From NCBI RefSeq assembly GCF_018140925.1, contig NZ_CP073315.1, forward strand, positions 3,038,001-3,102,000: 64,000 bases of DNA, read 5' to 3'. This document shows, one piece after another, positions 39,599-59,815 of this stretch. Source of the stretch: Psychrobacillus sp. INOP01 (lineage in GTDB: Bacteria; Bacillota; Bacilli; Bacillales_A; Planococcaceae). The notes below the pieces were generated by a model. That model made no database searches. It saw only the letters and a program-made list of their open reading frames with translations, and was not told the origin of the DNA. Both the position numbers and the translations under genes were made by a program. Each line of letters begins with the position of its first letter. Position 1 is the stretch's first letter.

Positions 39599-39700
39599 AT
39601 AAGTGGTGGTTATTGAATTTAATGTGGTAGTTGGCAGGATTTATGTTTTAGATACCATATTAAGTGTTAGTTGAGAGATGATATGTGGCAGTAGTTGGAC
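39599..39700 (+). repeat. TTATGTGGT 21-bp-period array, site 1
   Basis: Five degenerate copies of A-TGTGGT at 39601, 39622, 39643, 39662 and 39683 (steps of 21, 21, 19, 21). Spacers differ in sequence. Least conserved of four such arrays. No gene lies here. Confidence 0.6.
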
Positions 39701-39755
39701 AAAATCGTGGAATACTTTACTTTTGACCAATACTTAGTTTACATTGAAGGAATTT

Positions 39756-39800
39756 AAAATAGCAGCGAGAAGTGTTCTAGTCATTCTTCGTGGCTATTTT
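39756..39800 (+). terminator. Hairpin in the PTS operon leader
   Basis: AAATAGC-AGCGAGAA pairs with TTCTTCG-T-GGCTATTT, then acttactc. Sits about 85 bases before the IIA start, so it may be an attenuator of the PTS operon or simply a terminator. Confidence 0.45.
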
Positions 39801-39883
39801 ACTTACTCAAAAAACTATTGCCCACTCTCATGTTCAAACTCAAACAAGCATATAATACAAAAAGCAACAAAGGAGAAAAAATA

Positions 39884-40315
39884 CTGAATCGTAGAATACT
39901 AGAAAAACAAGCAATACTGCCAAATGCTACAGCAAAAGATTGGGAAGATGCTGTACGTTTATGCGGAGAAATACTTGTGAAAACGGGAAAAGTAGAAGCG
40001 ACTTATGTAGATGCAATGATCAGAAATATTCAGGAGCTTGGACCTTATATTTTAATAGCGCCTGGTGTAGCAATGCCTCACGCGCGTCCGGAAGATGGAG
40101 TTATTCAAGAAGGAATTAGCGTTGTTGTCTTGAAGGAAGAAGTTGCCTTTGAGCCTGGCAAGGAATTTAAGGTATTAATCGGCTTGGCCGCTTTAAATAA
40201 TGAATCACATATCGACATTTTACAAAAAATTGCGGAGGTGATTTCTAAAGCAGATTCGATAGAGCAATTAAAAAATGCAAAAGAGCATGACGAAATTTTT
40301 CAGTTATTTATGTAA
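39884..40315 (+). CDS. PTS IIA component, fructose/ascorbate (Ula) type, with CTG start
   Basis: PTS EIIA type-2 domain of about 144 residues. The phosphorylated histidine lies in APGVAMPHARPEDGV. Takes phosphate from HPr and passes it to the IIB protein. The only good ribosome binding site, AAAGGAG at about 39868-39874, is nine bases before CTG at 39884, giving a protein that begins (M)NRRILEKQAIL, just like relatives. Upstream ATG codons in frame (39818, 39830) have no ribosome binding site. The start is therefore probably CTG, or ATA at 39881. First gene of a IIA-IIB-IIC-transketolase operon. Confidence 0.85.
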   Translation: MNRRILEKQAILPNATAKDWEDAVRLCGEILVKTGKVEATYVDAMIRNIQELGPYILIAPGVAMPHARPEDGVIQEGISVVVLKEEVAFEPGKEFKVLIGLAALNNESHIDILQKIAEVISKADSIEQLKNAKEHDEIFQLFM

Positions 40316-40331
40316 AAGAGGAGCATAAGCC

Positions 40332-40601
40332 ATGAAAATATTAGCAGTATGCGGAATGGGTTTTGGATCTAGCATGATGTTGAAAATAACAATCGAAAAA
40401 ATATTAAAGGAAAAAGGCATAACAGCGGATGTAGAAACTGCCGATTTTACCACAGCTTCCAGCACCTATGCAGATATCATTTTTACTAATGAAGAATTTG
40501 CTAAACAATTGGAAGGAGGAAAAGCAAAGGTTGTTAGTGTAAAAAATATTGCGGATGCAAATGAAGTAAGAATCGGATTGGAGTCGGTACTAAACACATA
40601 A
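40332..40601 (+). CDS. PTS IIB component, ascorbate (Ula) type
   Basis: IIB domain of 89 residues with the phosphocysteine in LAVCGMGFGSSMML near the N-terminus, typical for the lactose/ascorbate IIB superfamily (UlaB). Accepts phosphate from the IIA protein upstream and phosphorylates the sugar during transport by IIC. Standalone, as in Ula systems. AGAGGAG precedes the ATG. Confidence 0.9.
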   Translation: MKILAVCGMGFGSSMMLKITIEKILKEKGITADVETADFTTASSTYADIIFTNEEFAKQLEGGKAKVVSVKNIADANEVRIGLESVLNT

Positions 40602-40614
40602 GGGGGATAGATGT

Positions 40615-41880
40615 ATGGCTTTTTTTGAATTCTTAATGAATGAGATTTTAAGCATTCCTGCTGTGTTAGTTGGTTTAATGGTCTTGGTTGGACTTGTTGC
40701 TCAACGTGCTGCTGCTACAAAAGTGATGTCTGGGACTCTTAAAAGTATTATAGGTTTACTTATTTTAGGTGCAGGTGCGGGGGTCATTGTAGGTTCGTTA
40801 GATTCGTTAGGCGGAATTATTGAAGAAGCCTTCCATATTCAAGGTGTCATTCCGAATAATGAAGCGGTAGTTGCTATTGCTCAGCAAATGTTTGGTACGG
40901 AAACAGCACTTATTATGGGATTTGGATTCGTTGCGAATATTTTATTTGCTCGTTTTACACCTTGGAAATATATCTTTTTAACCGGGCATCATACATTCTT
41001 TATGGCCGCTTTGCTATCTGCCGTTTTAGGAACATCTGGCATGGAAGGCGCTACTTTAGTAATTGTTGGTTCTTTACTATTAGGCTTTTTCATGGTTTTG
41101 ATGCCAGCACTTGGTCAGCCATTTATGAGACAAGTGACGGGAAATGATGACATTGCGATTGGTCACTTTGGAACATTTGGTTATATTTCTGCTGGTTTAA
41201 TAGGAAAATGGTTTGGCAATAAATCGAAATCCACAGAGGATATTAAAATCTCAGAGAAATGGGCATTTCTGAAGGATTCATTGATATCTACTGCATTAAC
41301 AATGATAGCTATTTTCATCATATTAGCTGTTTTAGCAGGTTCAGACGTTGTGTCTAATTTCTCCGGAGACCAAAACTATATTATGTTCAGTATCATGCAA
41401 GGTATTACATTTGCCGCTGGTTTAAGTATTATTTTACTCGGTGTACGTATGATTCTTAATGAAATCGTGCCGGCATTTAAAGGAATTGCAGATAAGCTTG
41501 TTCCTGGTGCAAAACCTGCATTAGATATACCGATTGTTTTCCCATTTGCACCAACAGCTGTAATGATAGGTTTCCTTTTCAGTTTTGCCGGGGGGCTTAT
41601 TAGTATGGCATTGTTAGGGGTATTGTCATTGCCACTGATCATCCCAGGTCTAGTACCTCACTTCTTTACAGGAGCGGGTGCCGGGGTATTTGGTAATGCA
41701 ACAGGAGGTCGAATTGGTGCTGCTGCGGGTGGATTTGTAAATGGTGTTTTAATAAGCTTCTTGCCAGCATTTTTACTACCCGTTTTAGGAGAACTTGGTT
41801 TTGCAAATACAACATTTGGTGATTCGGACTTTGGTGTAATAGGAATTATTATTGGATTCATTGCAAGTCTATTTAGCTAA
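40615..41880 (+). CDS. PTS IIC component, ascorbate (UlaA/SgaT) type
   Basis: Membrane component of 421 residues with 11-12 segments. The AAATKVMSGTLKSIIGLLILGAG start and GQPFMRQVTGNDDIAIGHFGT region are characteristic of UlaA. Transports and phosphorylates an ascorbate-like or other pentose-type compound with the IIA and IIB proteins. No UlaG lactonase or UlaD/E/F enzymes are present; a split transketolase is there instead, so the true sugar may differ from ascorbate. Confidence 0.9.
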   Translation: MAFFEFLMNEILSIPAVLVGLMVLVGLVAQRAAATKVMSGTLKSIIGLLILGAGAGVIVGSLDSLGGIIEEAFHIQGVIPNNEAVVAIAQQMFGTETALIMGFGFVANILFARFTPWKYIFLTGHHTFFMAALLSAVLGTSGMEGATLVIVGSLLLGFFMVLMPALGQPFMRQVTGNDDIAIGHFGTFGYISAGLIGKWFGNKSKSTEDIKISEKWAFLKDSLISTALTMIAIFIILAVLAGSDVVSNFSGDQNYIMFSIMQGITFAAGLSIILLGVRMILNEIVPAFKGIADKLVPGAKPALDIPIVFPFAPTAVMIGFLFSFAGGLISMALLGVLSLPLIIPGLVPHFFTGAGAGVFGNATGGRIGAAAGGFVNGVLISFLPAFLLPVLGELGFANTTFGDSDFGVIGIIIGFIASLFS

Positions 41881-41953
41881 AAACTTTTAGGTAGCCTTCT
41901 TTCTAGATAAGAGAGGGTTACCTAATTTTATGAGAAGAGGAAGAGGTGCTTTA

Positions 41954-42790
41954 TTGCTACAATCAAATGATCAATTAAAACTGACAGCTACGGTGCTGAG
42001 GAAAAGAATATTATCTACTGCTTATTATAAAAAACAGGGTCATGTTGGTGGTTCTCTATCATGTGCGGATATTTTAGTTAGTTTATTTTTTCATCAATTA
42101 TCTATCGATCCGTCTAATCCGAAATGGGAGGATAGGGATCGATTTGTGTTATCAAAGGGTCATACGGCATTGGGGCTTTATGCCACACTAGCACTGAGGG
42201 GATACATTTCCGAAGAGGAGCTTAAAACCTTCGATCAGTATGAATCGCGACTACAGGCACATCCGGATATGACCAAGTTAGATGCGTTAGATATGTCTAC
42301 AGGATCTTTAGGACAAGGTTTATCAGCAGCGGTTGGAATGGCTATTGGTGCGAAAAGGTTGAAGAAGGATTTCCAGGTTTATTGTTTGATAGGAGATGGG
42401 GAGTCTCAGGAGGGTCAAATTTGGGAAGCGGCAAATATAGCTGAAAAATATAAGTTAGATAATCTGATTGTTATTTTGGATCAAAACGGTCTGCAGCAAT
42501 ATGGGTGGAAAAATGGCGATAAAAGGTTGAACCCAGAGTGTTATGGGAGAAGAAAGTTTGAGAGTTTTGGGTTTGAAACTTGGGAAGTAGATGGACATTG
42601 TATGGAGGATTTAATAGCTGTGCTGACTGAAGTGAAGGGGAGACAGGAGGGACACCCTAAAGCTATTATTGCAAATACAACAAAAGGTAAGGGTGTTCGT
42701 TTTATGGAAAATAATTATGTTTGGCACTCTAAAGCACCTAATGATGAGGAGTATATAATGGCTTTAACCGAACTAGGGGAGGAAGTTTAA
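41954..42790 (+). CDS. Transketolase, N-terminal subunit
   Basis: Thiamine-diphosphate-binding half of transketolase, about 278 residues. HVGGSLSCADILVSLFF near the N-terminus and the ThDP/magnesium motif GDGESQEGQIWEAANIAEKY ending in ILDQN. The TTG at 41954 is preferred because AGAGGAAGAGGTG lies just before it and after the ATG at 41930. Works with the C-terminal subunit encoded six bases downstream. In the PTS operon it would channel the imported sugar phosphate into the pentose phosphate pathway. Confidence 0.88.
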   Translation: MLQSNDQLKLTATVLRKRILSTAYYKKQGHVGGSLSCADILVSLFFHQLSIDPSNPKWEDRDRFVLSKGHTALGLYATLALRGYISEEELKTFDQYESRLQAHPDMTKLDALDMSTGSLGQGLSAAVGMAIGAKRLKKDFQVYCLIGDGESQEGQIWEAANIAEKYKLDNLIVILDQNGLQQYGWKNGDKRLNPECYGRRKFESFGFETWEVDGHCMEDLIAVLTEVKGRQEGHPKAIIANTTKGKGVRFMENNYVWHSKAPNDEEYIMALTELGEEV

Positions 42791-42795
42791 GCAGC

Positions 42796-43725
42796 ATGTT
42801 GATAAGTGTCCGTGACCAATTTGGAAAGCACTTGGCGCAAATAGCAAAAGATGATTCCAGAGTTCTTGCTCTGGATGGAGATCTTGGAAACTCTACACGT
42901 CTAGATTCTATAGAGAAAGAAACAGTCGATTCCTTTTTACAAATGGGGATTGCAGAGCAAAATATGGTGGGCGTGGCAGCGGGGTTAGCTTCGGTCGGAT
43001 TTCAGCCTTGGGTATGTAGCTTTGCCACTTTTTTAACAAAAAGAGCATTAGATCAAATTGTAGTCAGTATTGCCCAGACCAATTTCGATGTGAAGCTAGT
43101 TGGCAGTTATAGTGGATTGCTGACAAGCAACACTGGTAAAACACATCACTCCTTAGATGATATAGCTATCATGACCACGATACCAAATATGACTGTCATT
43201 GCCCCTGCCGACGCGAGTGAAACGGTCGCTGCTATGAAAGCTATGCATCAAACAGCAGGACCTATGTATTTAAGGTTAACTAGGGATGAAACGATTCCTT
43301 CTTTTTTAGCTGATGCTGAATTTGAAATTGGAAAGGGTAAAACGCTGGCGGAAGGGACGGACATCTTAATAGTAAGTACCGGGAGTACAACCTACCGTGT
43401 AGCTGAGGTTATTAAACAAATGGAAGGTGTGTCAATTGCCCACCAGCACTTTCCAACGCTCAAGCCATTTGACAAAGAATTGTTATTAGAAGGTGCTAGA
43501 AAAGTTCAACTTGTAGTAACAGTAGAAGAGCATTATATACGTGGTGGGCTTGGAAGTATCGTTTCAGAAATTTTATCGGAAGAATTACCTAAGAGAGTCT
43601 ATAGAATTGGAGTTCCCGATAGGTTTTTGGGTTGTGGGACGGATGAAGAGTTGTTGGCGGCAAATGGACTTTCGGTGGAAGAAATCAGAAAGTCGCTTTC
43701 TAATGAATTGATAAGGTTACGGTGA
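42796..43725 (+). CDS. Transketolase, C-terminal subunit
   Basis: Second transketolase half, 309 residues: pyrimidine-binding domain with the catalytic glutamate in FLQMGIAEQNMVGVAAGLAS, and a C-terminal transketolase domain with VTVEEHYIRGGLGS. Split transketolases of this kind are common next to sugar-specific PTS genes in Firmicutes. GGGGAGGAAG is the ribosome binding site. Confidence 0.92.
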   Translation: MLISVRDQFGKHLAQIAKDDSRVLALDGDLGNSTRLDSIEKETVDSFLQMGIAEQNMVGVAAGLASVGFQPWVCSFATFLTKRALDQIVVSIAQTNFDVKLVGSYSGLLTSNTGKTHHSLDDIAIMTTIPNMTVIAPADASETVAAMKAMHQTAGPMYLRLTRDETIPSFLADAEFEIGKGKTLAEGTDILIVSTGSTTYRVAEVIKQMEGVSIAHQHFPTLKPFDKELLLEGARKVQLVVTVEEHYIRGGLGSIVSEILSEELPKRVYRIGVPDRFLGCGTDEELLAANGLSVEEIRKSLSNELIRLR

Positions 43726-43782
43726 GACCTGTAGAAATTATGTGGTATTTAAGTGGTGTTTAAATAATATGAAACAAATTTA

Positions 43783-43808
43783 GAACGTCAGGGATGACGT
43801 TCTTTTTT
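43783..43808 (+). terminator. Terminator of the PTS-transketolase operon
   Basis: GAACGTCA-GGGA-TGACGTTC with a run of six T. Confidence 0.85.
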
Positions 43809-43895
43809 ATTCTACTAACTTTATGTGTAGTTCATTTCAATCGGAACGTTTATAATAGAAAGTACGAGGCGTTAACAGTGAAAGTAGGGGGAAAC

Positions 43896-44756
43896 ATGGC
43901 ATCGATTGATCAAGAACTTTATGAATACCTTATAGAAAATTCAAGTAATATTACGAGTCAATGGTTTGCAGCAAAAAGTGGTTTTAATGGCTCTTTTTAT
44001 TCCGATAATCCGAATCCAGATATAGATCAAGTTTTGATGGAACAACATGCTTTGACTATTAGGACTGTTGCTTATGCTTTTTTGGAGGAAGAGAATGGAT
44101 TTCAGGAGCAACTTCTATTGTGGGCAGAGACAGTAGCAAAAAGTAGAATTGAACATAATACACCGATTCATGATGTAATACAGGCTTTACATAAAACTCG
44201 TGAAACCATATGGCTGTATGTGGAGTACTTTGCAAATGACAACCTCGATGAATTGCTCAATACCCATATACTAAAATGGAGTCGCTTATTTAATACAGCA
44301 TTTGATCAGCTTATTCATAGCTTCTCATCAAGATATTATGAACTATCTAGCAAAAGATTGAATGCCCAACAATCTTTAATAAATGAATTGAGTATTCCCG
44401 TTATACCAATTTTGGATGGTGTTGGGGTATTACCGGTTATTGGGGATATTGATACGACTCGGGCAAGGTTATTATTGGAAAGTGTGCCCTATAAATGTGT
44501 AGAAGTTGGTATAGATAAACTTTTCATAGATATTTCGGCTGTTTCGGTTATGGATACAATGGTAGCAAATGAAATGTTTCATCTAATAGATGTACTTCAA
44601 TTGCTAGGCATCAAAACTTCTTTATCTGGTATTCGTCCGGAAGTGGCACAGACTTCCATCCAATTAGGAGTGGATTTTGGCAATATTTCTACTTTTAGTT
44701 CGTTAAAACAGGCACTGTTGAGGACGGGACTTTATAATCGTATCCCAGGTAAATAA
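43896..44756 (+). CDS. RsbR-type stressosome STAS protein
   Basis: Protein of 286 residues. Variable N-terminal helical sensor domain (about 1-165, non-haem globin type in this family) and a C-terminal STAS domain (about 170-275). IDISAVSVMDTMVANEMF contains the threonine equivalent to the phosphorylated T205 of RsbR. Such proteins build the cytoplasmic stressosome that gates the SigB cascade. RsbS, RsbT and RsbU genes are not adjacent, so this is an orphan paralogue (RsbRB/RC/RD or YtvA-like group). ATG 43896 has AGTAGGGGG upstream. Confidence 0.85.
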   Translation: MASIDQELYEYLIENSSNITSQWFAAKSGFNGSFYSDNPNPDIDQVLMEQHALTIRTVAYAFLEEENGFQEQLLLWAETVAKSRIEHNTPIHDVIQALHKTRETIWLYVEYFANDNLDELLNTHILKWSRLFNTAFDQLIHSFSSRYYELSSKRLNAQQSLINELSIPVIPILDGVGVLPVIGDIDTTRARLLLESVPYKCVEVGIDKLFIDISAVSVMDTMVANEMFHLIDVLQLLGIKTSLSGIRPEVAQTSIQLGVDFGNISTFSSLKQALLRTGLYNRIPGK

Positions 44757-44902
44757 TAGAAGAAAAAGAGGAAATTGAAGGTAAGAGCTAGTTGATTTTT
44801 GACTATTGTAGATTTTATATATAATAATTAGGCTTTCAAGCTGCTATACATATAGGGAAACGAGTATGGATAGGTACTTGTAAGATTGGAGAGTAGTATT
44901 TG

Positions 44903-46276
44903 ATGAAATCTGTTATATACCTGGTAGTTTTATTGGTGCTAGTTCTTTTGTTACCTGATATTTCCTATGCGCAAAATGGAATGGACGAGAAATCATCTGG
45001 GACGGATAGAGTGATAGTCGAGGTCCTTAATGAGGATGGGCAAGAAGAGATTGAAAGTTTAACGTGGGATGAGTTAGATAAGATGGAAGATGTTCAACAG
45101 GTTGAAGTGTTAGAACCAGATTATATTCGTTCCATTGGTGTTGTCCATACTAATATAGCGATGAATCCTACTTGGTCTGCAAAGCGAATTGGTGTTGAGC
45201 AGATGAAGGAGCAGTTAATATCAAAAAAAAATGATGTAATTGTGGCTATTATTGATACGGGAGTAGATAATACGCATCCTTTGCTAGCTGATAGAGTGAT
45301 AGAGGGATATGATTTTGTAGATAATGATAGAGATGCAATGGACAAGCATATGCACGGAACACATGTCGCAGGAATAATTACACAATCTACGCCGGAGCAT
45401 GTGAAAGTGCTCCCAATACGTTCTCTGGATGCAGATGGGAATGGGTACGATACGAACATTGCTAAAGGAATCCATTATGCAGTAGATAACGGAGCATCTA
45501 TTATTAATATGAGTTTAGCAGGAGAAAACTATAGCACATATTTGGCAAATGCCATTGAATATGCGATCCAGCATGATGTTCTCATAGTAGTTGCCTCAGG
45601 AAATAAAGGAATGGATACCGAAAAATTTTATCCTGCCTCTGAACAAAGAGTGATTGTCGTATCTGCGACAGATGAAAATGATCAGGTAACGGATTTTAGC
45701 AATACAGGAGCATCGATTGACATTGCAGCACCGGGTGTAAGCATTCTATCTAGCATCCCTGGAGGAAAATATGCCCTAATGGATGGCACATCAATGGCTG
45801 CCCCCCATATTAGTGCCGTTGCCTCCATGTTAAAATTAGATGATCCTACTAGAACCATTCAAGAAATCGAAGACTTGATCAAACAATATGCGGATGATAA
45901 AGGTGCGGCAAACTGGGATTCACTTTACGGAGAAGGTATTGTAAATGTCTCCTCTTACCAAAAGTATTCTATGATCCAGCAAAAACAGGCATCAGCTGAC
46001 TACATCTCACTACCAAAATATACAAACGTCCCACTTGATAAAAAATGGACCATCAACTTTAATCGTATTCTCACAAATACTAAAATCATCTCTGTCTTTA
46101 TGTACTCCGATGAAAAAGAAGTCCCAATTAATGTCTCCTTTACAAGAGGTACCGATAAATTAATGGTAACACCTAAAGCTAATTTTGAAGCAAATTCTCC
46201 CTATCTGCTCGACATACGAGTCGCTGGTGGTGATCGATATATGATGAATTTCGAAACAGCTTCAGTTGAAGAGTGA
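44903..46276 (+). CDS. Secreted subtilisin-like serine protease (S8), copy 1
   Basis: Extracellular protease of about 458 residues. A signal peptide (about 1-23, ending SYAQ) is followed by a short pro-region with DRVIVEV. The S8 domain has catalytic D118 (AIIDTGVD), H151 (HGTHVAG), oxyanion N234 and S297 (GTSMAAPH). The C-terminal 90 residues (VPLDKKWTINFN onwards) look like a Big_5/SbsA-type immunoglobulin domain. Paralogue of the gene at 53967, with the same layout. ATG 44903 has GGAGAG nine bases upstream. No S-layer or LPXTG anchor is seen, so it is probably released. Confidence 0.9.
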   Translation: MKSVIYLVVLLVLVLLLPDISYAQNGMDEKSSGTDRVIVEVLNEDGQEEIESLTWDELDKMEDVQQVEVLEPDYIRSIGVVHTNIAMNPTWSAKRIGVEQMKEQLISKKNDVIVAIIDTGVDNTHPLLADRVIEGYDFVDNDRDAMDKHMHGTHVAGIITQSTPEHVKVLPIRSLDADGNGYDTNIAKGIHYAVDNGASIINMSLAGENYSTYLANAIEYAIQHDVLIVVASGNKGMDTEKFYPASEQRVIVVSATDENDQVTDFSNTGASIDIAAPGVSILSSIPGGKYALMDGTSMAAPHISAVASMLKLDDPTRTIQEIEDLIKQYADDKGAANWDSLYGEGIVNVSSYQKYSMIQQKQASADYISLPKYTNVPLDKKWTINFNRILTNTKIISVFMYSDEKEVPINVSFTRGTDKLMVTPKANFEANSPYLLDIRVAGGDRYMMNFETASVEE

Positions 46277-46333
46277 TGGTTTAAGGAAATTGTATTAGTG
46301 AGTAGAATATGTAGAATAATGAAAAGTATTGGA

Positions 46334-46364
46334 AACCAATTGTGCATGGGGCAATTGGTTTTAT
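46334..46364 (+). terminator. Terminator of subtilase copy 1
   Basis: AACCAATTG/CAATTGGTT stem with TTTATTG following. Confidence 0.65.
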
Positions 46365-46420
46365 TGTGGTGTGGTAAATTGCAGTGTTAAATAAAGTTTA
46401 TTTAAATTTTGTACAAACAA

Positions 46421-46466
46421 AAAGAAACCATTTTGAACTAAGATTGATCAAAATGGTTTCTTTTTC
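46421..46466. terminator. Bidirectional terminator between subtilase and GNAT genes
   Basis: AAAGAAACCATTTTGA (46421-46436) pairs exactly with 46448-46463, with T-runs on both strands. Confidence 0.85.
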
Positions 46467-46480
46467 GGTGAATGCTTGTA

Positions 46481-46903
46481 TTATAAATCTTTTTTTAAAT
46501 AATAATGCTTGTAGTCTCGTCCTACATTGTCTAAACACCCATATACTTCATATCCATTTTTTTTATAAAAACCTAATGCTTGGAAGCTTAGTGTGTCTAC
46601 CTTTATGAAATTGCATTTTTTTTCTATAGCGATCTTCTCAAGTTCTAATAATAATTTTGTTCCAAATCCCGATTTTCGAATATCCTCATTAATCATAAAG
46701 GTATGAATTTCTAACCAATTCCAGCACACTTCGGCGAGTATTCCGCCACGTGTAATCCCATTTTCGTCCTTAAGATACAAACAGACTTCTTCATATCTGC
46801 CTCTTAAATCTACTGGAAAATGTTTCAGGTTAAACTTATAAAGCTCATCATCAATATATTGTTTATCATTTTTATTTAATTCATTAGTAATGCGCAAATT
46901 CAT
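46481..46903 (-). CDS. GNAT family N-acetyltransferase
   Basis: Acetyltransferase of 140 residues. The acetyl-CoA site is in IRKSGFGTKLLLELEKIA (R/Q-x-x-G-x-G/A motif region), and a GFYKKNGYEVYG motif lies near the C-terminus. The acceptor is unknown. AAAGGAG lies upstream of the ATG. First of several small minus-strand genes between 46.5 and 49.2 kb. Confidence 0.85.
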   Translation of the reverse strand: MNLRITNELNKNDKQYIDDELYKFNLKHFPVDLRGRYEEVCLYLKDENGITRGGILAEVCWNWLEIHTFMINEDIRKSGFGTKLLLELEKIAIEKKCNFIKVDTLSFQALGFYKKNGYEVYGCLDNVGRDYKHYYLKKDL

Positions 46904-46949
46904 CGTTGATTTCTCCTTTTGCTTTGTTTTAAATTACAAAAAATGTAAA

Positions 46950-47516: not shown

Positions 47517-47724
47517 TTTTTTCCCCTCTATCTCTTGTATGATTTAGAATACCTGTGACATTGTGGAATAATTTTTCTATATCGGGTATAGCCATCCCTC
47601 ATTTTTCTAAAAGAATAATATGAGTAGTAGTATTCAAAAACTATTAGCTGCTTCATAAGTGGTGATTAGATTATATCCTACCAACATTCACTGGTAATAC
47701 CTCATTCTTATTTCATAAAAGAAA

Positions 47725-47758: not shown

Positions 47759-47760
47759 AT

Positions 47761-48045: not shown

Positions 48046-48080
48046 TTTTGCACTCCTAAATGTTTAGTTTTCTTTTAGGA

Positions 48081-49224: not shown

Positions 49225-49292
49225 TAAGTTCGACAAATAAAGCGTTAATCCTTCTTTAATTACGTTCTTCGTTAGTTCAATAGCGTTTACCA

Positions 49293-49455
49293 TTATGTGG
49301 TTGAGTGGATTTATGTGACGACCACCATTTTATGTGTTGGTTATGGGAGTTTAAGTGGTAGATAAAAGAGGTTATGTGTTGGTTGAGGAGGTTTATCTGG
49401 TAGCCGTCATTTTTATGTGTTGGTTATAGGAGTTTATGTGGTAGCCAAGGGTTTT
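49293..49455 (+). repeat. TTATGTGGT 21-bp-period array, site 2
   Basis: Eight copies with ATGTG-type anchors at 49295, 49313, 49332, 49353, 49374, 49395, 49415 and 49436 (steps 18-21). Units such as TTATGTGTTGGTTATGGGAGT recur nearly intact. Lies in the 400-bp gap between divergent fosB and the acyltransferase; nothing else coding is seen there. Confidence 0.8.
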
Positions 49456-49568
49456 TATTATTAAGATAAAATCATTATTCCCCAATAATACTTTGACTTC
49501 AAACTTTCTTTGACTTTCACACCTAATTAATTTACCATTTATATAGTACTATTTTTAAGGAGTCATCT

Positions 49569-52068: not shown

Positions 52069-52234
52069 TTCAAAACCTCCCATAAAGTTTATTGTACCTC
52101 AAAATATATTTTGTAGTAAACTAAGCCATTAAAAAAAGGGTCTTGTACCTAGCGAATTATAGTTATAATGTAACTATTATTCGCTAGTATTCGACAGTAC
52201 ACTTAAGGAAGTACATAAAGAAATGGGGGAAACG

Positions 52235-53833
52235 ATGGAAAAATTACTAAAATTACTCGGAGCATTTCTCATCATGCTCCTGATATGGAATAGTTATACT
52301 AACGTAACTGAAGCTTCCGCTTTTCGAGAAGTATATACCGTAAATAGTGCATCGGGAGTACTCCTAAGAGAGGCTCCATCTACTGGATCTGCGTCGCTAC
52401 AACACATGAGCTACGGCACATATGGAACTGTATTCTCGATTGATGAGAACGGTTGGGCTCATGTTCAAGTGGACGGATTAAGTGGTTACGCGCCAGTAAG
52501 CTATTTGAAAAAAGCTACAGGTACTATTAAAATAGCAAGTTCTATAGGTGGCGTTATAGTTCGAGAATCTGCAAGTGCAACGAGTAAGAATCTTGCAACA
52601 CTAAAATATAAAATGATTATAGAAGAATTCTCCGCTGAAAACGGGTGGTCATTCGTTCAATATGGCAATATTACTGGTTATGTTGCCTCTAACTTTATAG
52701 GAAAGCCTACTACTTATCCTGCAACAGTAGCATCCAAAAGTGGAGTAGTCGTGAAAAATATTGCAAGTACGAGTGGTGCAAGTGTTGGTGCACTTTCGAA
52801 TGGAAAGACTGTCTTAGTACATTCGGAGTTAGCTGGCTGGGCTTATGTAACAGCGGGTGATATGCAAGGGTATGTAGTTGCAAGCTTTCTTTCAAAGGGA
52901 ACACCAGCACCAAACACTAGCAATATAGTAAACCCTAAACAAGTCATTACACATAAGGAAATGACGACTTATTTACAGCAGATTGCAGCGAAATATCCGA
53001 GTTTCACAGAATTAAAACAAATAGGATCCTCTGTAGAGAATCGTCCTATTTATGCAATCCGGATCGGAAATGGGAAAAAGGAAGTATTGTTTGATGGTTC
53101 CGTACATGCAAGAGAGCATATGACGACAAATGTCCTGCTCGAAATGATTGACACATATAGTGCACACTATGCAGCGGGTAGTTCTTACGAGGGTTACAAC
53201 GTTAAATCTGTTTTGGACAAGACAGCTATCTGGTTTGTGCCGATGGTTAATCCTGACGGGGTTACGCTTGTCCAATTAGGAGCAAATGCGGTAGCTAACA
53301 AGTCTAGTGTCCTTGCTATTAATGGAAGTAGTAACTTTAACCGCTGGAAGTCCAATGTACGCGGTGTTGATTTGAATGATAACTTTGACTCGAGATGGTC
53401 CAAAATTAACAATTCTCGACCAGGTCCTTCTTATATGCAATATAGAGGCCCCCGTGCGTTCAGTGAGCCGGAAGCACAGGCTTTAGGGAACTTTATGACC
53501 AGTCGACCGTTTAAAACCAATATCTCCTATCATTCATCTGGTCAAATTATGTACTGGTTTAATTATCAACAAACGGCAGAGCTTAATAGAGATAAAGGCT
53601 TAGCCAATCAATTATCTCAAATTACCGGATATAAGGTTATGCCACCGCAATACCTTCCGGGTTCTGGGGCATCTGGAGATTACTTCATCCAAGAAACCGG
53701 AATGCCAGGTATTGTACTTGAAATTTCCCCATATGCAGGTGAAAACCCTGTCCCATTAAGTAGATGGGATCGTATTTGGAAAGAAAATGCTAAGGTTGGC
53801 TTATTTGTCGCAAATGAAGCATCAAACAGATAG
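52235..53833 (+). CDS. Secreted triple SH3b - M14 metallocarboxypeptidase
   Basis: Secreted protein of about 532 residues. Signal peptide about 1-28. Three SH3b repeats (about 32-92, 97-157, 163-221), each with a GxxGYVxxxxL ending, which usually bind peptidoglycan. The M14 domain (about 238-530) has zinc ligands H291 and E294 (HAREH), H433 (SYHSSGQ) and catalytic E496 (GIVLEISP). Probably a gamma-D-glutamyl-diamino-acid or similar wall-peptide peptidase. ATG 52235 has GGGGG upstream. Confidence 0.9.
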   Translation: MEKLLKLLGAFLIMLLIWNSYTNVTEASAFREVYTVNSASGVLLREAPSTGSASLQHMSYGTYGTVFSIDENGWAHVQVDGLSGYAPVSYLKKATGTIKIASSIGGVIVRESASATSKNLATLKYKMIIEEFSAENGWSFVQYGNITGYVASNFIGKPTTYPATVASKSGVVVKNIASTSGASVGALSNGKTVLVHSELAGWAYVTAGDMQGYVVASFLSKGTPAPNTSNIVNPKQVITHKEMTTYLQQIAAKYPSFTELKQIGSSVENRPIYAIRIGNGKKEVLFDGSVHAREHMTTNVLLEMIDTYSAHYAAGSSYEGYNVKSVLDKTAIWFVPMVNPDGVTLVQLGANAVANKSSVLAINGSSNFNRWKSNVRGVDLNDNFDSRWSKINNSRPGPSYMQYRGPRAFSEPEAQALGNFMTSRPFKTNISYHSSGQIMYWFNYQQTAELNRDKGLANQLSQITGYKVMPPQYLPGSGASGDYFIQETGMPGIVLEISPYAGENPVPLSRWDRIWKENAKVGLFVANEASNR

Positions 53834-53840
53834 CCTTATT

Positions 53841-53874
53841 ACCTACAAACCAACAAGGTTTGTAGGTTTTTTTT
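53841..53874 (+). terminator. Terminator of the SH3-M14 peptidase gene
   Basis: ACCTACAAACC/GGTTTGTAGGT with eight T. Confidence 0.92.
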
Positions 53875-53966
53875 ATCTTATTGACAGTAATCGACATCTC
53901 CTGGTTTACATAATTTACTTAATGGGTACTTGATTGTAAAAGTTCAGCCAATGGGGTGGGGAGAAA

Positions 53967-55346
53967 ATGAGGGGTTTATTGTTAAAAATGTTGTTAGGGT
54001 GTTCGTTTAGTATCGTTCTGTTTTTTCCTAGTATAGCTCTTAGTAGTTCAGGAGAACAAACAGAAACAGATAGAGTAATAGTAGAAGTAACCGATAAAGA
54101 AGGAAATAAAGAGATCGAGAGCATTGCTGTGGATGAAGTGCAGCCAAAATCATTCTTCACGATAGCCGCTTCATCGAAAGATGAGGTGAACGTGTTACAG
54201 CCAGATTATATTCGCACAATTGGTATGGTCCAAACAGCGGAGTATACCAAACCGTGGGGGGCAATGCGGGTTGGAACAGACTGGATAAAATCGCAGTTTG
54301 CTACGAACGCTGGAGAAGTGATTGTTGCAGTTATCGATACAGGTGTAGATTATACCCACTCCTTCTTGAAGGAGAGAATGGTAGCAGGTTATGATTTTGT
54401 AGATAATGACACAGATCCAATGGATGAGCATTTTCATGGGACGCATATAGCTGGAATAATAGCCGAATCAACTACAGCCAACGTCAAAATTATGCCAATT
54501 CGGGCGCTAAATGAAACTGGTAATGGCTATGATTCCAATATTGCTAAAAGTATCCATTACGCAGTAGATAATGGTGCATCCCTTGTGAACATGAGCTTTC
54601 AAGGGAATGAATATTCCGAGCATTTAGCAGCGGCAATTGACTACGCACTTTCTAACGATGTACTGGTGGTCGTATCATCTGGAAATAAAAGTGATGATAC
54701 AGCAAATTATTATCCCGCCTCAGAAAAAAAAGTGCTGGTCGTTTCAGCAACTGACCAATCCGATAAAATAGCTGTCTTTAGTAACACCGGCGGGTCCATC
54801 GACATATCAGCACCTGGTGTCGGAATACTTTCAAGTATCCCTGGAGAAAAGTATGCAGCCTTACATGGCACATCCATGGCAGCACCTTACGTAAGTGGTG
54901 TAGCAGCTATGCTTCTTCTGGATGATCCTACTAGATCGATAGAAGAATTAGAAAAAATGTTAAAAACGTATGTTGACGATAAAGGTGCAGTAAACTGGGA
55001 TCCGCTATTTGGAGAAGGTATCCTCAACGTCTCCAACTTTAATAAACATTCACTTATTACTAGCGCATTTAGTTCAAGCAATTATATTAATTTACCCGAA
55101 CATATCAATGTCCCTTTAGATAAAACATGGACCATTTTGTTCAACCAAGTATTCTCTGACGACTCAACAGTTGCTGTTAAACTATATACAGAAAACTATG
55201 AAATCCCCATTCAACTCACACCAGATTTAAAAAATAAAAAAATCATTGTATCTCCAACGAAAAACTATCAAGCGAACACAGAATATCTATTAGACATTCA
55301 AATCAAGAACGGAAACAGATACTTGATGCGATTTAAAACAAAATAA
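53967..55346 (+). CDS. Secreted subtilisin-like serine protease (S8), copy 2
   Basis: Extracellular protease of 459 residues, paralogue of 44903. Signal peptide about 1-27, short pro-region with the same DRVIVEV stretch. Catalytic D124 (AVIDTGVD), H157 (HGTHIAG), oxyanion N240 and S303 (GTSMAAPY). C-terminal Big_5/SbsA-like domain (VPLDKTWTILFN onwards). The shared unusual pro-region and C-terminal domain indicate duplication of the whole gene rather than of the catalytic core. GGGGTGGGG precedes the ATG. Confidence 0.9.
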   Translation: MRGLLLKMLLGCSFSIVLFFPSIALSSSGEQTETDRVIVEVTDKEGNKEIESIAVDEVQPKSFFTIAASSKDEVNVLQPDYIRTIGMVQTAEYTKPWGAMRVGTDWIKSQFATNAGEVIVAVIDTGVDYTHSFLKERMVAGYDFVDNDTDPMDEHFHGTHIAGIIAESTTANVKIMPIRALNETGNGYDSNIAKSIHYAVDNGASLVNMSFQGNEYSEHLAAAIDYALSNDVLVVVSSGNKSDDTANYYPASEKKVLVVSATDQSDKIAVFSNTGGSIDISAPGVGILSSIPGEKYAALHGTSMAAPYVSGVAAMLLLDDPTRSIEELEKMLKTYVDDKGAVNWDPLFGEGILNVSNFNKHSLITSAFSSSNYINLPEHINVPLDKTWTILFNQVFSDDSTVAVKLYTENYEIPIQLTPDLKNKKIIVSPTKNYQANTEYLLDIQIKNGNRYLMRFKTK

Positions 55347-55356
55347 ACAATAATAA

Positions 55357-55398
55357 GCTAGTAGATACAAAGAATTTGTATATCTACTAGCCTATTTT
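55357..55398 (+). terminator. Terminator of subtilase copy 2
   Basis: GCTAGTAGATACAAA arm pairs with a complementary arm ending at 55391, then CTATTTTTT. Confidence 0.85.
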
Positions 55399-55493
55399 TT
55401 GGGAGCATGTGGTTGTCTTTTGTAACCTTTTAGGTTGTACGTTGTTAATAATAGGAGTTTTCTTGTAGACTAAGAGATAAGGAGGGGAAGTAA

Positions 55494-56945
55494 ATGAAGA
55501 AATTAATGTTGAGTTTAAGTTTTTTATTGGCATTTGGGTTAAGCTTTTCATCTATTGCTCAAGCAGCGGGGTTTCAGGATGTTAAGACAAGTCATCCATT
55601 CTATGAGCATATCAATTATTTACATGGCGAGGGAATTGTGAATGGTGTGGATGCCGATCATTATAAGCCGAGTAATTTTGTTACGAGAAGCCAAGCAGCA
55701 TTAATGGTGGCTCGGGCTATGGACTTGGATTTAACTAGCAAAAAAACTATTTTTACAGATGTAGGTGCTGATCACCATGCATCTGGTGCTATTCAATCTG
55801 CAGCTGATGCGGGAATTATTAATGGTTATCCTGACGGGACTTTTAAACCAAATAATTTTGTAACAAGAGGTCAAATGGCGAGTTTTATAGCACGAGCATT
55901 TAAGATGAAGGGTGAGGCACTTCCTTTTGCGGATGTTCCTCTAAATTCATCCGCATATTCGGATATTCGAAAGGCAACTGCATTTGGGGTTGTTAGTGGA
56001 TATGCTAATGGAGATTTTAAACCGAACGATTCCGTAACTCGTGCACATTTTGCTGGATTTTTGGCACGAGCGTTGAATGATGATTTACGTTTGACAGTGG
56101 ATGCATGTGGGTACGATCCAGATTCCAAATCAAACCCAGATCGTCAAACGATGAACTGCTTGCTAACAACTTCAGCTAGAAATGCTGACGTGCCAATTCC
56201 AGCGGAGATCGTAAAGGCAGTGGCTTCCGTAGAAAGTAACGGATGGGTTCATTTCCTATCAAATGGTGAGCCAATTATTAGTAGTGACGGCGGTATTGGA
56301 TTGATGCAAATCACGAATACAGCAGGATACGACTTGGAACGTATAAAATATGATTTAGCGTATAATATTGAGACTGCAATCGATATACTTGGAAAAAATT
56401 ATAAGAGAAGTGATTTACCAAAAATCGAGAATGCTAGCCCAGAAGACTTAGAGAGTTGGTATTTTGCTATAATGGCCTACAATGGAACAAAAGCCGTGAA
56501 TAGCCCGGTATACCAAGCAACTGGCGAAAGAAATACGAAAGCATACCAAGAGCGAGTATACCAAGCACTTGAGAATAATGGATTACTAGAAACTAATATT
56601 GACCTGCTAGACTTTAACAAAGAGGATTTCACTTATGGAGAGGAAACAAATAACTCCATCATATTTAATAAAAAGTCGTTTCCGTTAACTTCAAGTACAC
56701 CAACTACTGAAGGATATGGAAAGGGAGACAAAGTAAAATATAATGGATCAGGTCTTCGCAAATCAGCAAGTACTCAGTCTCCACTTACAGCGACTAGTAA
56801 AGGTGCTGTAGTGACAATCATAGGTTCACCAGTATTTGATGAAAACAAAAGCTCCACTAATCAGTTTGTTTGGTATCCTGTCCAAACAGTAGCAAACGGC
56901 AAAAGTGTGAATGGGTATATCGCTTCACCATACATTGTAAAATAG
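55494..56945 (+). CDS. SLH domains - lytic transglycosylase (SLT) - SH3 wall hydrolase
   Basis: Secreted protein of 483 residues. Signal peptide about 1-24. Three SLH repeats (about 26-68, 86-130, 144-190) anchor it to pyruvylated wall polymer. The SLT-type lysozyme-fold domain (about 232-350) has the catalytic glutamate E247 in ASVESNGW, then GGIGLMQITNTAGYD and IMAYNGT. A C-terminal SH3-like segment (about 410-483) ends at the stop. Likely cuts peptidoglycan glycan strands at the cell surface. AAGGAGGGG precedes the ATG. Confidence 0.88.
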   Translation: MKKLMLSLSFLLAFGLSFSSIAQAAGFQDVKTSHPFYEHINYLHGEGIVNGVDADHYKPSNFVTRSQAALMVARAMDLDLTSKKTIFTDVGADHHASGAIQSAADAGIINGYPDGTFKPNNFVTRGQMASFIARAFKMKGEALPFADVPLNSSAYSDIRKATAFGVVSGYANGDFKPNDSVTRAHFAGFLARALNDDLRLTVDACGYDPDSKSNPDRQTMNCLLTTSARNADVPIPAEIVKAVASVESNGWVHFLSNGEPIISSDGGIGLMQITNTAGYDLERIKYDLAYNIETAIDILGKNYKRSDLPKIENASPEDLESWYFAIMAYNGTKAVNSPVYQATGERNTKAYQERVYQALENNGLLETNIDLLDFNKEDFTYGEETNNSIIFNKKSFPLTSSTPTTEGYGKGDKVKYNGSGLRKSASTQSPLTATSKGAVVTIIGSPVFDENKSSTNQFVWYPVQTVANGKSVNGYIASPYIVK

Positions 56946-56957
56946 CTAAAATTGTTG

Positions 56958-56993
56958 AACCGACTTTCTTCCGAGGGAAGTCGGTTTTTTTTA
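56958..56993 (+). terminator. Terminator of the SLH-SLT gene
   Basis: AACCGACTT/AAGTCGGTT stem with eight T. Confidence 0.9.
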
Positions 56994-56994
56994 T

Positions 56995-57090
56995 GTCATA
57001 AACTCCGCTAGCCGCCACATAAATCTACCTAACCACCACATAATTCTATCTAACTACCACATAAACTCCTCCAACAACCACATAAGTCCC
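56995..57090 (-). repeat. TTATGTGGT 21-bp-period array, site 3 (inverted)
   Basis: On the minus strand, ATG anchors (CAT on +) at 56997, 57018, 57039, 57060 and 57081: exactly 21 bases apart each time. The unit reads TTATGTGGT plus 12 variable bases. It starts right at the end of the previous terminator and lies 150 bases before the 5'-nucleotidase gene. Confidence 0.85.
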
Positions 57091-57183
57091 CCGACTTAAC
57101 CCTATTTTACAAGCACTTTTCCCTATTAACGCATTAACAGTTTTCAAAATTTACAAATTTGTTACACTATTTACTTTTGTTTT

Positions 57184-57192
57184 TGCTACAAT
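57184..57192 (+). promoter_or_regulatory. Candidate extended -10 promoter of the SLH-nucleotidase gene
   Basis: TGCTACAAT (TG-N-TACAAT), 46 bases before the start; the -35 is weak. Confidence 0.3.
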
Positions 57193-57237
57193 TATATTGG
57201 TTTAATATTCCAAGAAGAGAAAGAAGGAAATAAGTTT

Positions 57238-59589
57238 ATGTGGAAAAAGGTTTCAGCTTCGGCGCTAGCTTTGTCGCTTGCAGTTGGGGGATATGCTAAT
57301 GTTGACCATGCTTCTGCGGCAAAAAGTCCAGATGTCACTCGTGGTGAGTATGTAAAAACGATGATCGATGCAATGGGTGTTGAATTAGGTACTGGTAAAT
57401 CTGTGAAGTTTAATGATGTTCCAGAATCATTAAAGCCTTATATTGAGAAAGCTCTTGAGTTAAAACTTATTACTGGGAAGTCAGCTACTGTTTTTGCTCC
57501 TGATGAAAAACTTTCTCGTGAGCATGCATTTATTATTGCGACAAGAGCTATTGAGACGGATAAAACTTACTCAGAGAGTCTACTAAACAAATTTACAGAT
57601 AAAAATAAAATCCGTGTATCTAATCGTAACGAAATTGCGAAGGCAGTTGGATTAGGTTTCTTAAATGGATACCCAGATAAAACCTTAAAACCTTCAAATA
57701 TTGTTAGCAAACATGAGATGAATAATATTCTAAAACGCTTTTTGAAGGAATATAAAAATTCAAGTTCAACTGTTTCTCTAAGAATCTTAGGTACCTCGGA
57801 CATTCATACGAATATCGTGAACTATGACTATTACAAAGATACAGAGTCTAATAGCTTAGGTCTTGCAAAAACTGCTACACTAATCAAAAATGCACGTTCA
57901 GAAAATAGTAATACTTTACTATTTGACAATGGTGATGCGATACAAGGTACACCACTTGGTTCTTATAAGCAATCAGTGGACAAGTTAGAAGACGGTGAAG
58001 AACATCCTTCAGTGACAGCAATGGAATTGCTAAAATATGATGGTGCTACATTCGGAAACCATGAATTTAACTATGGTTTAGATTATTTGGATGAAGTTAC
58101 AGATGATGCGAATTTCCCGTATGTGAATGCGAATGTTCGTGATGGAGCAACTGGTAAATTAGTTTATGATCCATACGTTTTGATTGAAAAAGAAGTAGTT
58201 GATTCCAAAGGGAAGAAATCTACTATCAAAGTTGGTGTAACCGGTATTGTTCCACCGCAAATTCTGAAGTGGGACAAGTCTCATTTAGAAGGAAAAGTGA
58301 AGGTAGACGATTCCGTACAAGCTGTGGAGGCTATTGTACCAGAAATGAAGAAAGCTGGAGCAGATGTGATTGTAGTGCTTTCCCACTCGGGACTTGGCGA
58401 TATGAAGCATGAGGTTGGCGAAGAAGATGTTACGTATTTGCTAACAAAGGTTAAAGGCGTAGATGCGATTGTTACTGGTCATGCACACCAAGTATTCCCT
58501 GGAAAAGTGGATGAGTCGTTAACGAATGTAGACGTGGAAAACGGTACGATTAACGGTGTTCCGGTTGTTATGCCAGGTAAATTTGGTAGCCACTTAGGTG
58601 TAATCGATTTAGATTTAGTAAAAAAAGGGAACGAATGGGAAGTAAAACAATCTAAAGCGGAGGTTCGCACAATTGCGAAAGATGCTACGGATGTGGATAA
58701 AACCATTGTCGATGCAGTAAAACAAGCACATGAAGGAACGATTAAATACGTACGCCAAGCAGTTGGAACAACAACAGCGGATATTCATAGCTACTTCTCA
58801 CAAGTACAAGATGATCCATCTATCCAAATCGTAACAAATGCTCAAACTGAGTACGTAAAAGCAAAACTAAAAGGTACAGCAAATGAAAAATTACCAGTCC
58901 TTTCTGCAGGTGCACCATTTAAAGCTGGAACAAGAAGCGATCCTGAGTATTACACATATGTACCAAAAGGCGAGCTAGCTATTAAAAACGTAGCGGATTT
59001 ATATTTATATGACAACACAGTAGCAATCGTTAAAGTTACTGGAGCAGATGTAAAAGAATGGTTAGAAATGTCTGCAGGTCAATTCAACCAAATCGTTGGA
59101 ACGAAAACTGGCGAGCAACAGCTTATCAATACAGATTTCCGCTCATATAACTATGACGTAATCGACGGAGTAACTTACGAAATAGATGTTACAAAACCAG
59201 CGAAATACGATGCAGACGGAAATCTAGTAAATGAAGGTTCATCCCGTATTACGAACCTCCAATACGAGGGTAAACCAATCGATTTAAAACAAGAATTCAT
59301 CGTAGCAACAAATAACTACCGTGCGAATGGAACATTCCCAGGAGTACGTAATGCGACAGCGATTGAAATCTATCCAGATGAAAACCGTCAAACAATTATC
59401 GACTACATTCTTGCAGAGAAAACAATCGATCCATCTGCTGACGGTAACTGGAAATTCGCAGCACTTCCGGCAAACTCAACAATCGTATTCGAATCCTCTA
59501 AACAAGCAGAAAAAGTAATCCCTGCTGATGGCCGCATCAAATATGTTGGTGAAGGTACAGACGGATTTGGTAAGTATTCTATTAAATAA
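57238..59589 (+). CDS. SLH-anchored 5'-nucleotidase / 2',3'-cyclic phosphodiesterase
   Basis: Secreted protein of 783 residues. Signal peptide about 1-28. Two or three SLH-like repeats (about 33-170). Metallophosphatase domain (about 180-430) with D188 and H190 (GTSDIHTN), DNGD (230-233), GNHE (273-276) and GHAH. The 5'-nucleotidase C-terminal substrate-binding domain (about 500-700) is followed by a short tail. Probably releases phosphate or nucleosides from extracellular nucleotides. AAGAAGGAAA is the ribosome binding site. Flanked on both sides by TTATGTGGT arrays in opposite orientation. Confidence 0.9.
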   Translation: MWKKVSASALALSLAVGGYANVDHASAAKSPDVTRGEYVKTMIDAMGVELGTGKSVKFNDVPESLKPYIEKALELKLITGKSATVFAPDEKLSREHAFIIATRAIETDKTYSESLLNKFTDKNKIRVSNRNEIAKAVGLGFLNGYPDKTLKPSNIVSKHEMNNILKRFLKEYKNSSSTVSLRILGTSDIHTNIVNYDYYKDTESNSLGLAKTATLIKNARSENSNTLLFDNGDAIQGTPLGSYKQSVDKLEDGEEHPSVTAMELLKYDGATFGNHEFNYGLDYLDEVTDDANFPYVNANVRDGATGKLVYDPYVLIEKEVVDSKGKKSTIKVGVTGIVPPQILKWDKSHLEGKVKVDDSVQAVEAIVPEMKKAGADVIVVLSHSGLGDMKHEVGEEDVTYLLTKVKGVDAIVTGHAHQVFPGKVDESLTNVDVENGTINGVPVVMPGKFGSHLGVIDLDLVKKGNEWEVKQSKAEVRTIAKDATDVDKTIVDAVKQAHEGTIKYVRQAVGTTTADIHSYFSQVQDDPSIQIVTNAQTEYVKAKLKGTANEKLPVLSAGAPFKAGTRSDPEYYTYVPKGELAIKNVADLYLYDNTVAIVKVTGADVKEWLEMSAGQFNQIVGTKTGEQQLINTDFRSYNYDVIDGVTYEIDVTKPAKYDADGNLVNEGSSRITNLQYEGKPIDLKQEFIVATNNYRANGTFPGVRNATAIEIYPDENRQTIIDYILAEKTIDPSADGNWKFAALPANSTIVFESSKQAEKVIPADGRIKYVGEGTDGFGKYSIK

Positions 59590-59604
59590 TATTTGTTTGT
59601 TGAA

Positions 59605-59640
59605 ACCACCACTGCTTATTGGAGCAGTGGTGGTTTTTTT
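59605..59640 (+). terminator. Terminator of the SLH-nucleotidase gene
   Basis: AACCACCACTGCT/AGCAGTGGTGGTT stem with eight T. Confidence 0.92.
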
Positions 59641-59661
59641 GTTGGGATAGATGAGTGGGGG

Positions 59662-59815
59662 TTATGTGGTGTTTAGCAAAGGGTATGTTGTAGATAGGCT
59701 ATTTTATGTGTTAGATCAAGAGAGTTATGTGCTGGTTAGTGGCGTTTATGTGGTAAATAGACTGACTTATGTGGAATTCACCATTTTGACACTCTTTTAT
59801 GTGGTGGAAGAAGGA
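59662..59815 (+). repeat. TTATGTGGT 21-bp-period array, site 4
   Basis: ATG anchors at 59664, 59685, 59706, 59727, 59748 and 59769, exactly 21 bases apart, plus one at 59799 (30 bases on). Because 21 is a multiple of three, the array stays open in one frame and reads as a repetitive YVV peptide, which is an artefact. Begins just after the terminator at 59640. Confidence 0.85.

Follow-up and report, generated by a model that had tools for sequence, protein, structure and literature searches.

Intergenic arrays with a common two-turn step and differing core words in Psychrobacillus and other Planococcaceae

The 64,000-nucleotide stretch of the Psychrobacillus sp. INOP01 chromosome analysed here (the window) carries intergenic arrays in which the core word TTATGTGGT recurs about every two helical turns, and relatives of this soil bacterium carry arrays with the same step that are built on different words. 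The cores change more slowly than the DNA between them and remain in phase on the helix. Rows with a common step but different words in related genomes suggest a protein that lines up along the DNA, and with about even confidence we take the arrays to be DNA-level platforms for a row of a sequence-specific DNA-binding protein, with a word that turns over between lineages. Such a row would hold one copy of the putative protein per core word, all on the same face of the helix, and most of the DNA between the cores would be free to vary.

Arrays in the window and in the host genome

The preliminary description listed four arrays in the window, and three of these are clear. The array at 49293..49454 (+ strand) has 8 TTATGTGGT-type units with steps of 18, 19, 21, 21, 21, 20 and 21 bp and is flanked by a divergently transcribed pair, a glyoxalase-family gene (-) and an acyltransferase gene (+) (Pfam). 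The array at 57002..57085 (- strand) has 4 units with steps of 21, 21 and 21 bp and a terminator-like hairpin on its 3' side, and its neighbours are an SLH/SLT-domain gene (55494-56945) and an SLH/5'-nucleotidase gene (57238-59589) (Pfam). The array at 59662..59787 (+ strand), located between the convergent genes 57238-59589 (+) and 60238-60867 (-), has 6 units and a terminator-like hairpin on its 5' side; an extra exact core, TTATGTGG, lies at 59797..59804 (+ strand), 30 bp past its last core. Its five 21-bp steps are the only run of that kind, where two arrays with five or more exact steps had been reported. The fourth array (39599..39700, + strand), between a ComK-family gene (38946-39413) and a PTS EIIA gene (39818-40315) (Pfam), is degenerate: it has about 5 units, contains only 3-mismatch pairs, a level at which the genome has 82 matches against 18 for the reversed-pattern control, and falls below the chain score.

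The arrays are indeed intergenic and not simple tandem copies, and the 12-base part does show a bias, with R, G, T, T, R, G favoured behind the core and R favoured at position 20. In CRISPR arrays, identical repeats of some 23-47 bp alternate with unique spacers that are about as long, and cas genes lie next to them. The arrays were rightly said not to be of this kind, since the conserved core is 9 bp (14 bp with weaker positions) with about 12 bp between cores; none of the eight flanking window proteins belongs to a Cas family (Pfam). Coding sequence was rejected because units of 18, 19, 20 and 22 bp break the reading frame.

The TTATGTGGT 8-mer alone, at up to one mismatch, occurs 76 times in the window against 65.2 expected, and 10 of 100 shuffles were equally high. 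Since the single 8-mer is not clearly enriched, the signal resides in the spacing. A scan of the host genome with TTATGTGGT-N12-TTATGTGGT (up to one mismatch) gave 45 matches against 0 for the reversed pattern, placing the paired motif above background. The arrays are not explained by an annotated repeat, as judged from Rfam in the window, or by decayed coding sequence. The host genome has TTATGTGGT arrays at 15 sites, 13 of them inside 330 kb; the 39599 array and one at 2938 kb are under the chain score and were included through pattern matches. The motif is thus real in this genome, but it is one of several words and the finding is wider than first described.

As for placement, the arrays had been said to lie usually right after a terminator. 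A terminator-like hairpin is indeed found within 70 bp of 10/15 TTATGTGGT arrays, compared with 18/105 random placements in window gaps, but the divergent gap at 49293 is without one. Among this genome's TTTACTTGC arrays the figure is only 3/15 (42 merged TTTACTTGC sites, 16 stretches retrieved and 15 arrays used), which counts against the terminator link. Array placement is mostly away from start codons, and four arrays in other genera (G049, G053, G030, G035) lie between convergent genes. Because the arrays are intergenic and the TTATGTGGT ones mostly beside terminators, the row of the putative protein would most likely mark or insulate gene ends or anchor the nucleoid, rather than control promoters. 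Relative to replication, a check that had been suggested, 27 of 39 sites run against the leading direction (p=0.024), a bias that is confounded with gene orientation and is not significant for TTATGTGGT or TTTACTTGC alone.

Gene orientation also bears on a role at the RNA level, in which the strand opposite TTATGTGGT (ACCACATAA, C-rich and G-poor) would act in mRNA as a Rho-type entry site or a site for an RNA-binding protein at gene ends. A Rho utilisation site is a C-rich, G-poor and unstructured stretch of the transcript strand. Where the flanking genes share a direction, 14/18 sites (hand tally) have the TTATGTGGT/TTTACTTGC strand as the antisense strand, and the nrdE leader contains one array, situated behind a cobalamin riboswitch. 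We nevertheless regard an RNA role as quite unlikely: the antisense strand is C-rich and G-poor for TTATGTGGT arrays but not for other words (neither strand is C-rich for TTTACTTGC, TTTAGGTGA, TTCTAATAT and TTGTCTATT), an RNA site would not be expected to keep strict two-turn spacing, and RNA structure was rejected, 20 arrays showing no consistent folding on either strand (z from -3.1 to +2.1). Rfam gave no family in the window, and only the cobalamin riboswitch, in L026, when the window and that locus were searched together.

The neighbourhood of surface-protein genes could instead point to recombination substrates for the duplication, loss or swap of neighbouring SLH genes. SLH or subtilase genes have arrays on both sides at several loci, and the 2.94-3.27 Mb region holds both many SLH genes and TTATGTGGT arrays. 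Many SLH genes of this region are, however, without an adjoining array, TTTACTTGC arrays are scattered genome-wide, and gene order is identical in G000 and G004 at the shared sites compared, so that we consider this reading very improbable.

Divergence of cores and spacers between relatives

The sister-species comparison (G000/G004) shows that unit number is far from constant at shared sites. The 49293 site has 8 units in the window and 30 in G004 (L096), the 57002 site has 4 and 17, and the 59662 array has 6 orthologous units in G004. Superunits recur inside arrays, and the window array 49297-49444 shares about 85% identity with an array at 3494 kb in G004, although the two lie at different places. 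All of this, together with a patchy presence that does not follow a clade, speaks for the main rival of the platform: concertedly evolving neutral or selfish minisatellites that behave as eukaryotic satellites do, by slippage, unequal exchange and copying between loci, with the unit length kept by descent and the sequence drifting in concert. Varying unit number at one site is indeed what characterises a VNTR or minisatellite.

Copying and drift should, however, hit core and spacer equally, so that the whole unit of a neutral minisatellite evolves alike. In 67 orthologous unit pairs from G000 and G004, picked by spacer similarity and with the 2938-kb array added by hand, core positions 1-9 had 42/603 differences (7.0%), positions 10-14 had 46/335, and positions 15-21, the most variable part of the spacer, had 118/454 (26%). 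Change in the core is thus roughly four times slower than at positions 15-21. The flanks had 243/1553 differences (15.6%), a figure from an alignment without unit gaps that includes coding and some misaligned bases. When the detection filter was simulated, an equally low core result was obtained in 0/400 runs at 16% neutral divergence and in 6/400 runs at 12%. Since a common step is also found with unlike words across genera, we find the minisatellite reading doubtful, if a real possibility. With the platform, unit number would likewise change via slippage or unequal exchange.

Among 19 congeners the TTATGTGGT two-unit test was positive in 4, and among the other 82 genomes searched 3 had a single match to the pair. 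Isolated single sites (TTATGTGGTRNTYR) had 0-3 matches in the 15 other congeners, overall not above the reversed pattern. The four bearers do not form a clade on a tree of one gene, nrdE, and a single origin was rejected; the tree has 4 changes in array presence, at least 3 of them forced by well-supported branches. At the nrdE site arrays have been lost or reduced in most congeners, showing that single arrays are dispensable, and some array-free species keep one degenerate unit.

A further rival is a small self-spreading element, an array with a fixed 3' end that is moved or copied to new sites. The bgl-mgtC site, with an array in G004, a different word in G008 and none in G000, could be read in this way, and the arrays are polar: C at position 9 is found in the last unit of 5/13 G000 arrays against 2/90 other units, in 10/20 against 21/231 in G004, and in 3/6 against 3/30 in G009 and G010 together, and many TTTACTTGC arrays terminate in a GGAACGG-like unit as judged by eye. 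Such an element is unlikely in our opinion, as it comes without a demonstrated target-site duplication or terminal repeat, the degenerate unit left at nrdE fits contraction better, and the one array tried (window 49280-49460) had no match in plasmids and phages. In viral contigs, two-unit matches were seen in 7 and 11 stretches, with no longer array at these loci.

Step, words and helical phase

Congeners without TTATGTGGT arrays use TTTACTTGC (several), TTTAGGTGA or TTTATGGGC, and the words of other genera include GCGGGTATT, TTGTCTATT, TTCTAATAT and GTTGAGCGA. A period-blind scan with a strict threshold of 1,708,032 bases from 16 genomes of the family gave, over the range of 15-30 bp, periods of 20, 21 and 22 bp only, while a single call, of 23 bp, came from 337,720 bases of five other families and none from shuffles (10 x 184 kb). 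Calls were regarded as intergenic when under half of the call lay inside predicted ORFs of at least 130 aa, and a single array may yield more than one call. Blind sampling of the initial 80 kb of nine genomes gave a period-21 array in four, with a different word in each, and none in G051, G024, G026, G034 and G020, the last of which had a 41-bp array. No such array was found in the 40 kb scanned of G032, G003 had a single one over 360 kb, and 200 kb of G015 contained one weak example, sparse results that count against the platform. The G047 stretches were centred on known matches and the second G003 batch on its first array, so that densities are not random. One G047 call (L245, ACGCGGATT) has nearly identical spacers as well. 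Matches to named genomes (23 stretches) included longer arrays in Psychrobacillus soli (L068, L076). Longer arrays were also seen in other phyla (L067, L070, L080), their listed units nearly identical throughout, and these were counted neither way because of that near-identity and because the search pattern imposed the 21-bp step.

The step had been described as 21 bp, or two helical turns. About two turns is correct, but a fixed 21-bp step at 10.5 bp/turn fails in long arrays. The 24 arrays of at least 8 units have mean steps of 20.14-20.86 bp (about 20.6 bp on average), and their weighted coherence is 0.78 at 10.3 bp/turn versus 0.35 at 10.5; at its own best pitch an array of 42 units reaches 0.91 and one of 56 units 0.85, but both only 0.04 at 10.5 bp/turn. 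Long arrays average below 21 bp per unit because shorter units recur, holding the cores in phase at about 10.3 bp/turn. It counts against the platform that successive steps are not independent where whole superunits are amplified, and that shuffling the step order lowered coherence only from 0.894 to 0.824. In favour of the helical reading are the in-phase cores and the recurrence of the step with different words. On the platform reading, word and pitch would be kept at two turns per unit, units shorter than 21 bp would restore the phase, and the word would be replaced in evolution together with the putative protein, giving different words with the same geometry across lineages.

That geometry is kept while sequence turns over allows selection for spacing to be told apart from common descent, a distinction seldom available for the intergenic DNA of bacteria, and the function of intergenic repeat families becomes testable through these arrays. 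If a protein does line up on them, this would be an undescribed system for organising the nucleoid or gene ends, and its recognition word could be taken directly from each genome.

Comparison with known systems

Bacterial VNTRs and minisatellites likewise have tandem units that differ in number among relatives, but here the core is constrained over the spacer and one step is combined with many words. REP/BIME repeats sit at gene ends. They are like the arrays in being intergenic, lineage-specific and present in many copies per genome (PMC3733652). REPs are palindromes, however, and membership was rejected because the arrays are direct repeats without the stem-loop unit, 20 of them giving no consistent z on either strand. 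The TAACTGA repeats of Beggiatoaceae and Cyanobacteria share a short word in intergenic direct-repeat arrays, and they are described as contiguous heptamers upstream of start codons, with one word across distant phyla (PMC4679880). The arrays analysed here have a word plus a variable spacer, a two-turn step of 21 bp rather than contiguous 7-bp units, mostly a different location, and words that differ between genera, and a TAACTGA-type assignment was rejected.

Closest in geometry are the ParMRC centromeres, whose parC direct repeats (20 bp in pSK41) are bound by ParR, with the protein wrapping the DNA (PMC9426499, PMC5016525). They too form direct-repeat rows spaced at close to one or two turns, with a word that varies by system (PMC9426499, PMC5016525), and the 24 long arrays share with a ParR/parC site the helical phasing of direct repeats, here at about 10.3 bp/turn. 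Unlike ParMRC, the arrays occupy many chromosomal gene gaps, most of each unit is variable, and no par genes, including a parM/parR operon, were found among the eight window neighbours scanned. Tentatively, we suggest as a possibility on the less probable side that a chromosomal system exists throughout the Planococcaceae, in which a fast-evolving DNA-binding protein would sit in rows on phased arrays and mark or insulate gene ends, the geometry being constant and the word replaced by lineage. Such a system would be like plasmid centromeres, yet dispersed over the chromosome.

Arrays of the TTATGTGGT word

The preliminary description claimed four arrays in the window, three of which are clear, while the one starting at 39599 is degenerate; a gene of the ComK family of competence regulators (38946-39413) directly precedes the latter. 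The genome forms a single contig of 4,301,978 bases, of which the window covers 3038001-3102000, and the pattern hits in this genome mark 15 TTATGTGGT sites, 13 of them within 2.938-3.267 Mb. Two-unit matches (word, spacer and word at a step of about 21 bp, with at most one mismatch) numbered 45 versus 0 for the reversed control pattern. The same search found the pattern in 7 of 101 genomes, namely four of the 19 from the genus (45 hits in the window's own genome, 131 in its sister species G004 and 9 each in G009, likewise a Psychrobacillus, and G010) and three from outside it with one hit apiece.

The unit consists of TTATGTGGTRGTTRG and some six bases that vary; G009 and G010 have an unchanged core and RCTCR in the middle (n = 12 and 11 units). 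Steps in the window's genome measure 21 bp (n = 70), 19 bp (n = 12), 18 bp (n = 4) or other lengths (n = 4), and superunits of 21+21+21+19 are repeated, most clearly in G004. The arrays are polar in the window's genome, position 9 being C in 5 of 13 last units versus 2 of 90 other units.

Other words with a common step

A second word, TTTACTTGC, gave 94 two-unit hits in the window's genome versus 1 for the control at up to two mismatches. With at most one mismatch it was matched in 13 of 121 genomes (G008 241 hits, G004 93, G032 89, G007 64, the window's genome 50, G047 12, G014 7, G051 5, G005 2, and four genomes with 1), where reversed patterns gave 0-2 per genome. Since it is matched in both, the window's genome and its sister species each carry two words at once.

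A word-blind period scan covered parts of 16 genomes from the family Planococcaceae, the window included (1,708,032 bases), and accepted arrays of four or more units lying outside predicted genes. Within 15-30 bp it called only periods of 20 (n = 1), 21 (n = 16) and 22 bp (n = 2), and over 10-45 bp additionally 12, 14 and doubles of 41-43. A looser scan (12-33 bp) gave 21 (n = 22), 22 (n = 6) and 20 (n = 3), with five calls at 12, 14, 15 and 18. Five other families (337,720 bases) yielded one call, at 23 bp, and again one at 23 in the looser scan; shuffled sequence gave no calls in the word-blind scan. No array was called in the stretches of G032 (40 kb), G051, G024, G026, G034 (80 kb each) and G022 (4 kb).

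The words differ between genomes: TTTAGGTGA, TTTATGGGC and TTAATGGGC in G012, AATAATCGG with adjoining TTATCCGG found by eye in G003, TTACTTGCGAA and ACGCGGATT in G047, GCGGGTATT and a 30-unit TTYTATCC array in G049, TTGTCTATT in G053, TTCTAATAT at two loci in G030, and GTTGAGCGA in G035, besides a weak four-unit call in G015 and a 41-bp double step in G020. Along one G012 array (L237, about 11760-12420) the word shifts from TTAATGGGC/TTTATGGGC to TTTAGGTGA, possibly a snapshot of word turnover. The four-unit 21-bp ACGCGGATT array of G047 (L245:16964-17047) has nearly identical spacers, and other G047 arrays use TTACTTGCGAA.

Among 24 arrays of at least eight units the mean step was 20.14-20.86 bp and the best pitch 10.05-10.45, and weighted coherence was highest at 10.3 bp per turn (0.78 versus 0.35 at 10.5). 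A step of 21 bp at 10.5 bp per turn misfits long arrays, coherence being 0.04 in those of 42 and 56 units. Because superunits are amplified, successive steps are not independent, and a random reordering of the steps still gives a best coherence of 0.824, versus 0.894 in the original order. Four-unit superunits measure about 82 bp in the window's genome, G004 and G047, and five-unit ones about 103 bp in G032, G012 and G008. That different superunits and words reach a nearly equal mean step is a stronger argument for phase than coherence.

Site turnover and core constraint

Many sites are common to the window's genome and G004, with equal relative orientation and unequal unit numbers. Others occur in only one of them, such as the bgl-mgtC array of G004 (42 units); the array of G008 at this site is built of TTTACTTGC units. 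Of the 19 congeners, two have an array at the nrdE site by the chain search, and inspection by eye revealed one degenerate unit in G014, G008 and G011 and about three in G010. The unlinked TTTACTTGC arrays L180 and L192 of the window's genome have similar sequence on either side, probably because the block was copied along with its flanks. In G008 (L193:2450-3877) a 186-bp block of an approximately 60-bp linker and six TTTACTTGC units stands in eight tandem copies.

Amplification, copying between loci and patchiness are all accounted for if the arrays are neutral minisatellites spreading by slippage and copying, but this explains the common step by descent alone and leaves the contrast between core and spacer unexplained. 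In 67 orthologous unit pairs from 13 sites, picked by spacer similarity, a choice that works against this contrast, the core diverged at 42/603 positions, positions 10-14 at 46/335 and positions 15-21 at 118/454; flanks at five of these sites differed at 243/1553. Units were detected by at most two core mismatches, and simulation of this filter gave an expected core divergence of 0.123 at 16% neutral divergence and 0.095 at 12%, with values as low as observed in 0/400 and 6/400 runs, respectively.

Placement and putative function

A terminator-like hairpin lies within 70 bp of 10 of the 15 TTATGTGGT arrays versus 18 of 105 random placements, the finder having overlooked the riboswitch terminator at nrdE. 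There (L026:2673-3104) a cobalamin riboswitch with its terminator is followed by a four-unit array, located in the leader, and the class I ribonucleotide reductase gene nrdE (named by inspection). Several arrays stand next to SLH or subtilase genes, and the first-found arrays of G049, G053, G030 and G035 each lie between convergent genes. A CTGATTTCCGTTTCA stretch was seen in three gene gaps (L141, L187, L102), next to arrays or where no array is present.

As far as the role of the arrays can be inferred, promoter control is disfavoured, since the TTATGTGGT arrays mostly adjoin terminators and others sit between convergent genes. Our literature search, mostly of open-access papers, met such arrays in no title or abstract among the matches listed, and subscription papers may hold an earlier account. 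Because the word outlasts the faster-changing spacers and the two-turn step is kept across words, the arrays point to a candidate protein that would read the word and contact neighbouring copies on one DNA face.
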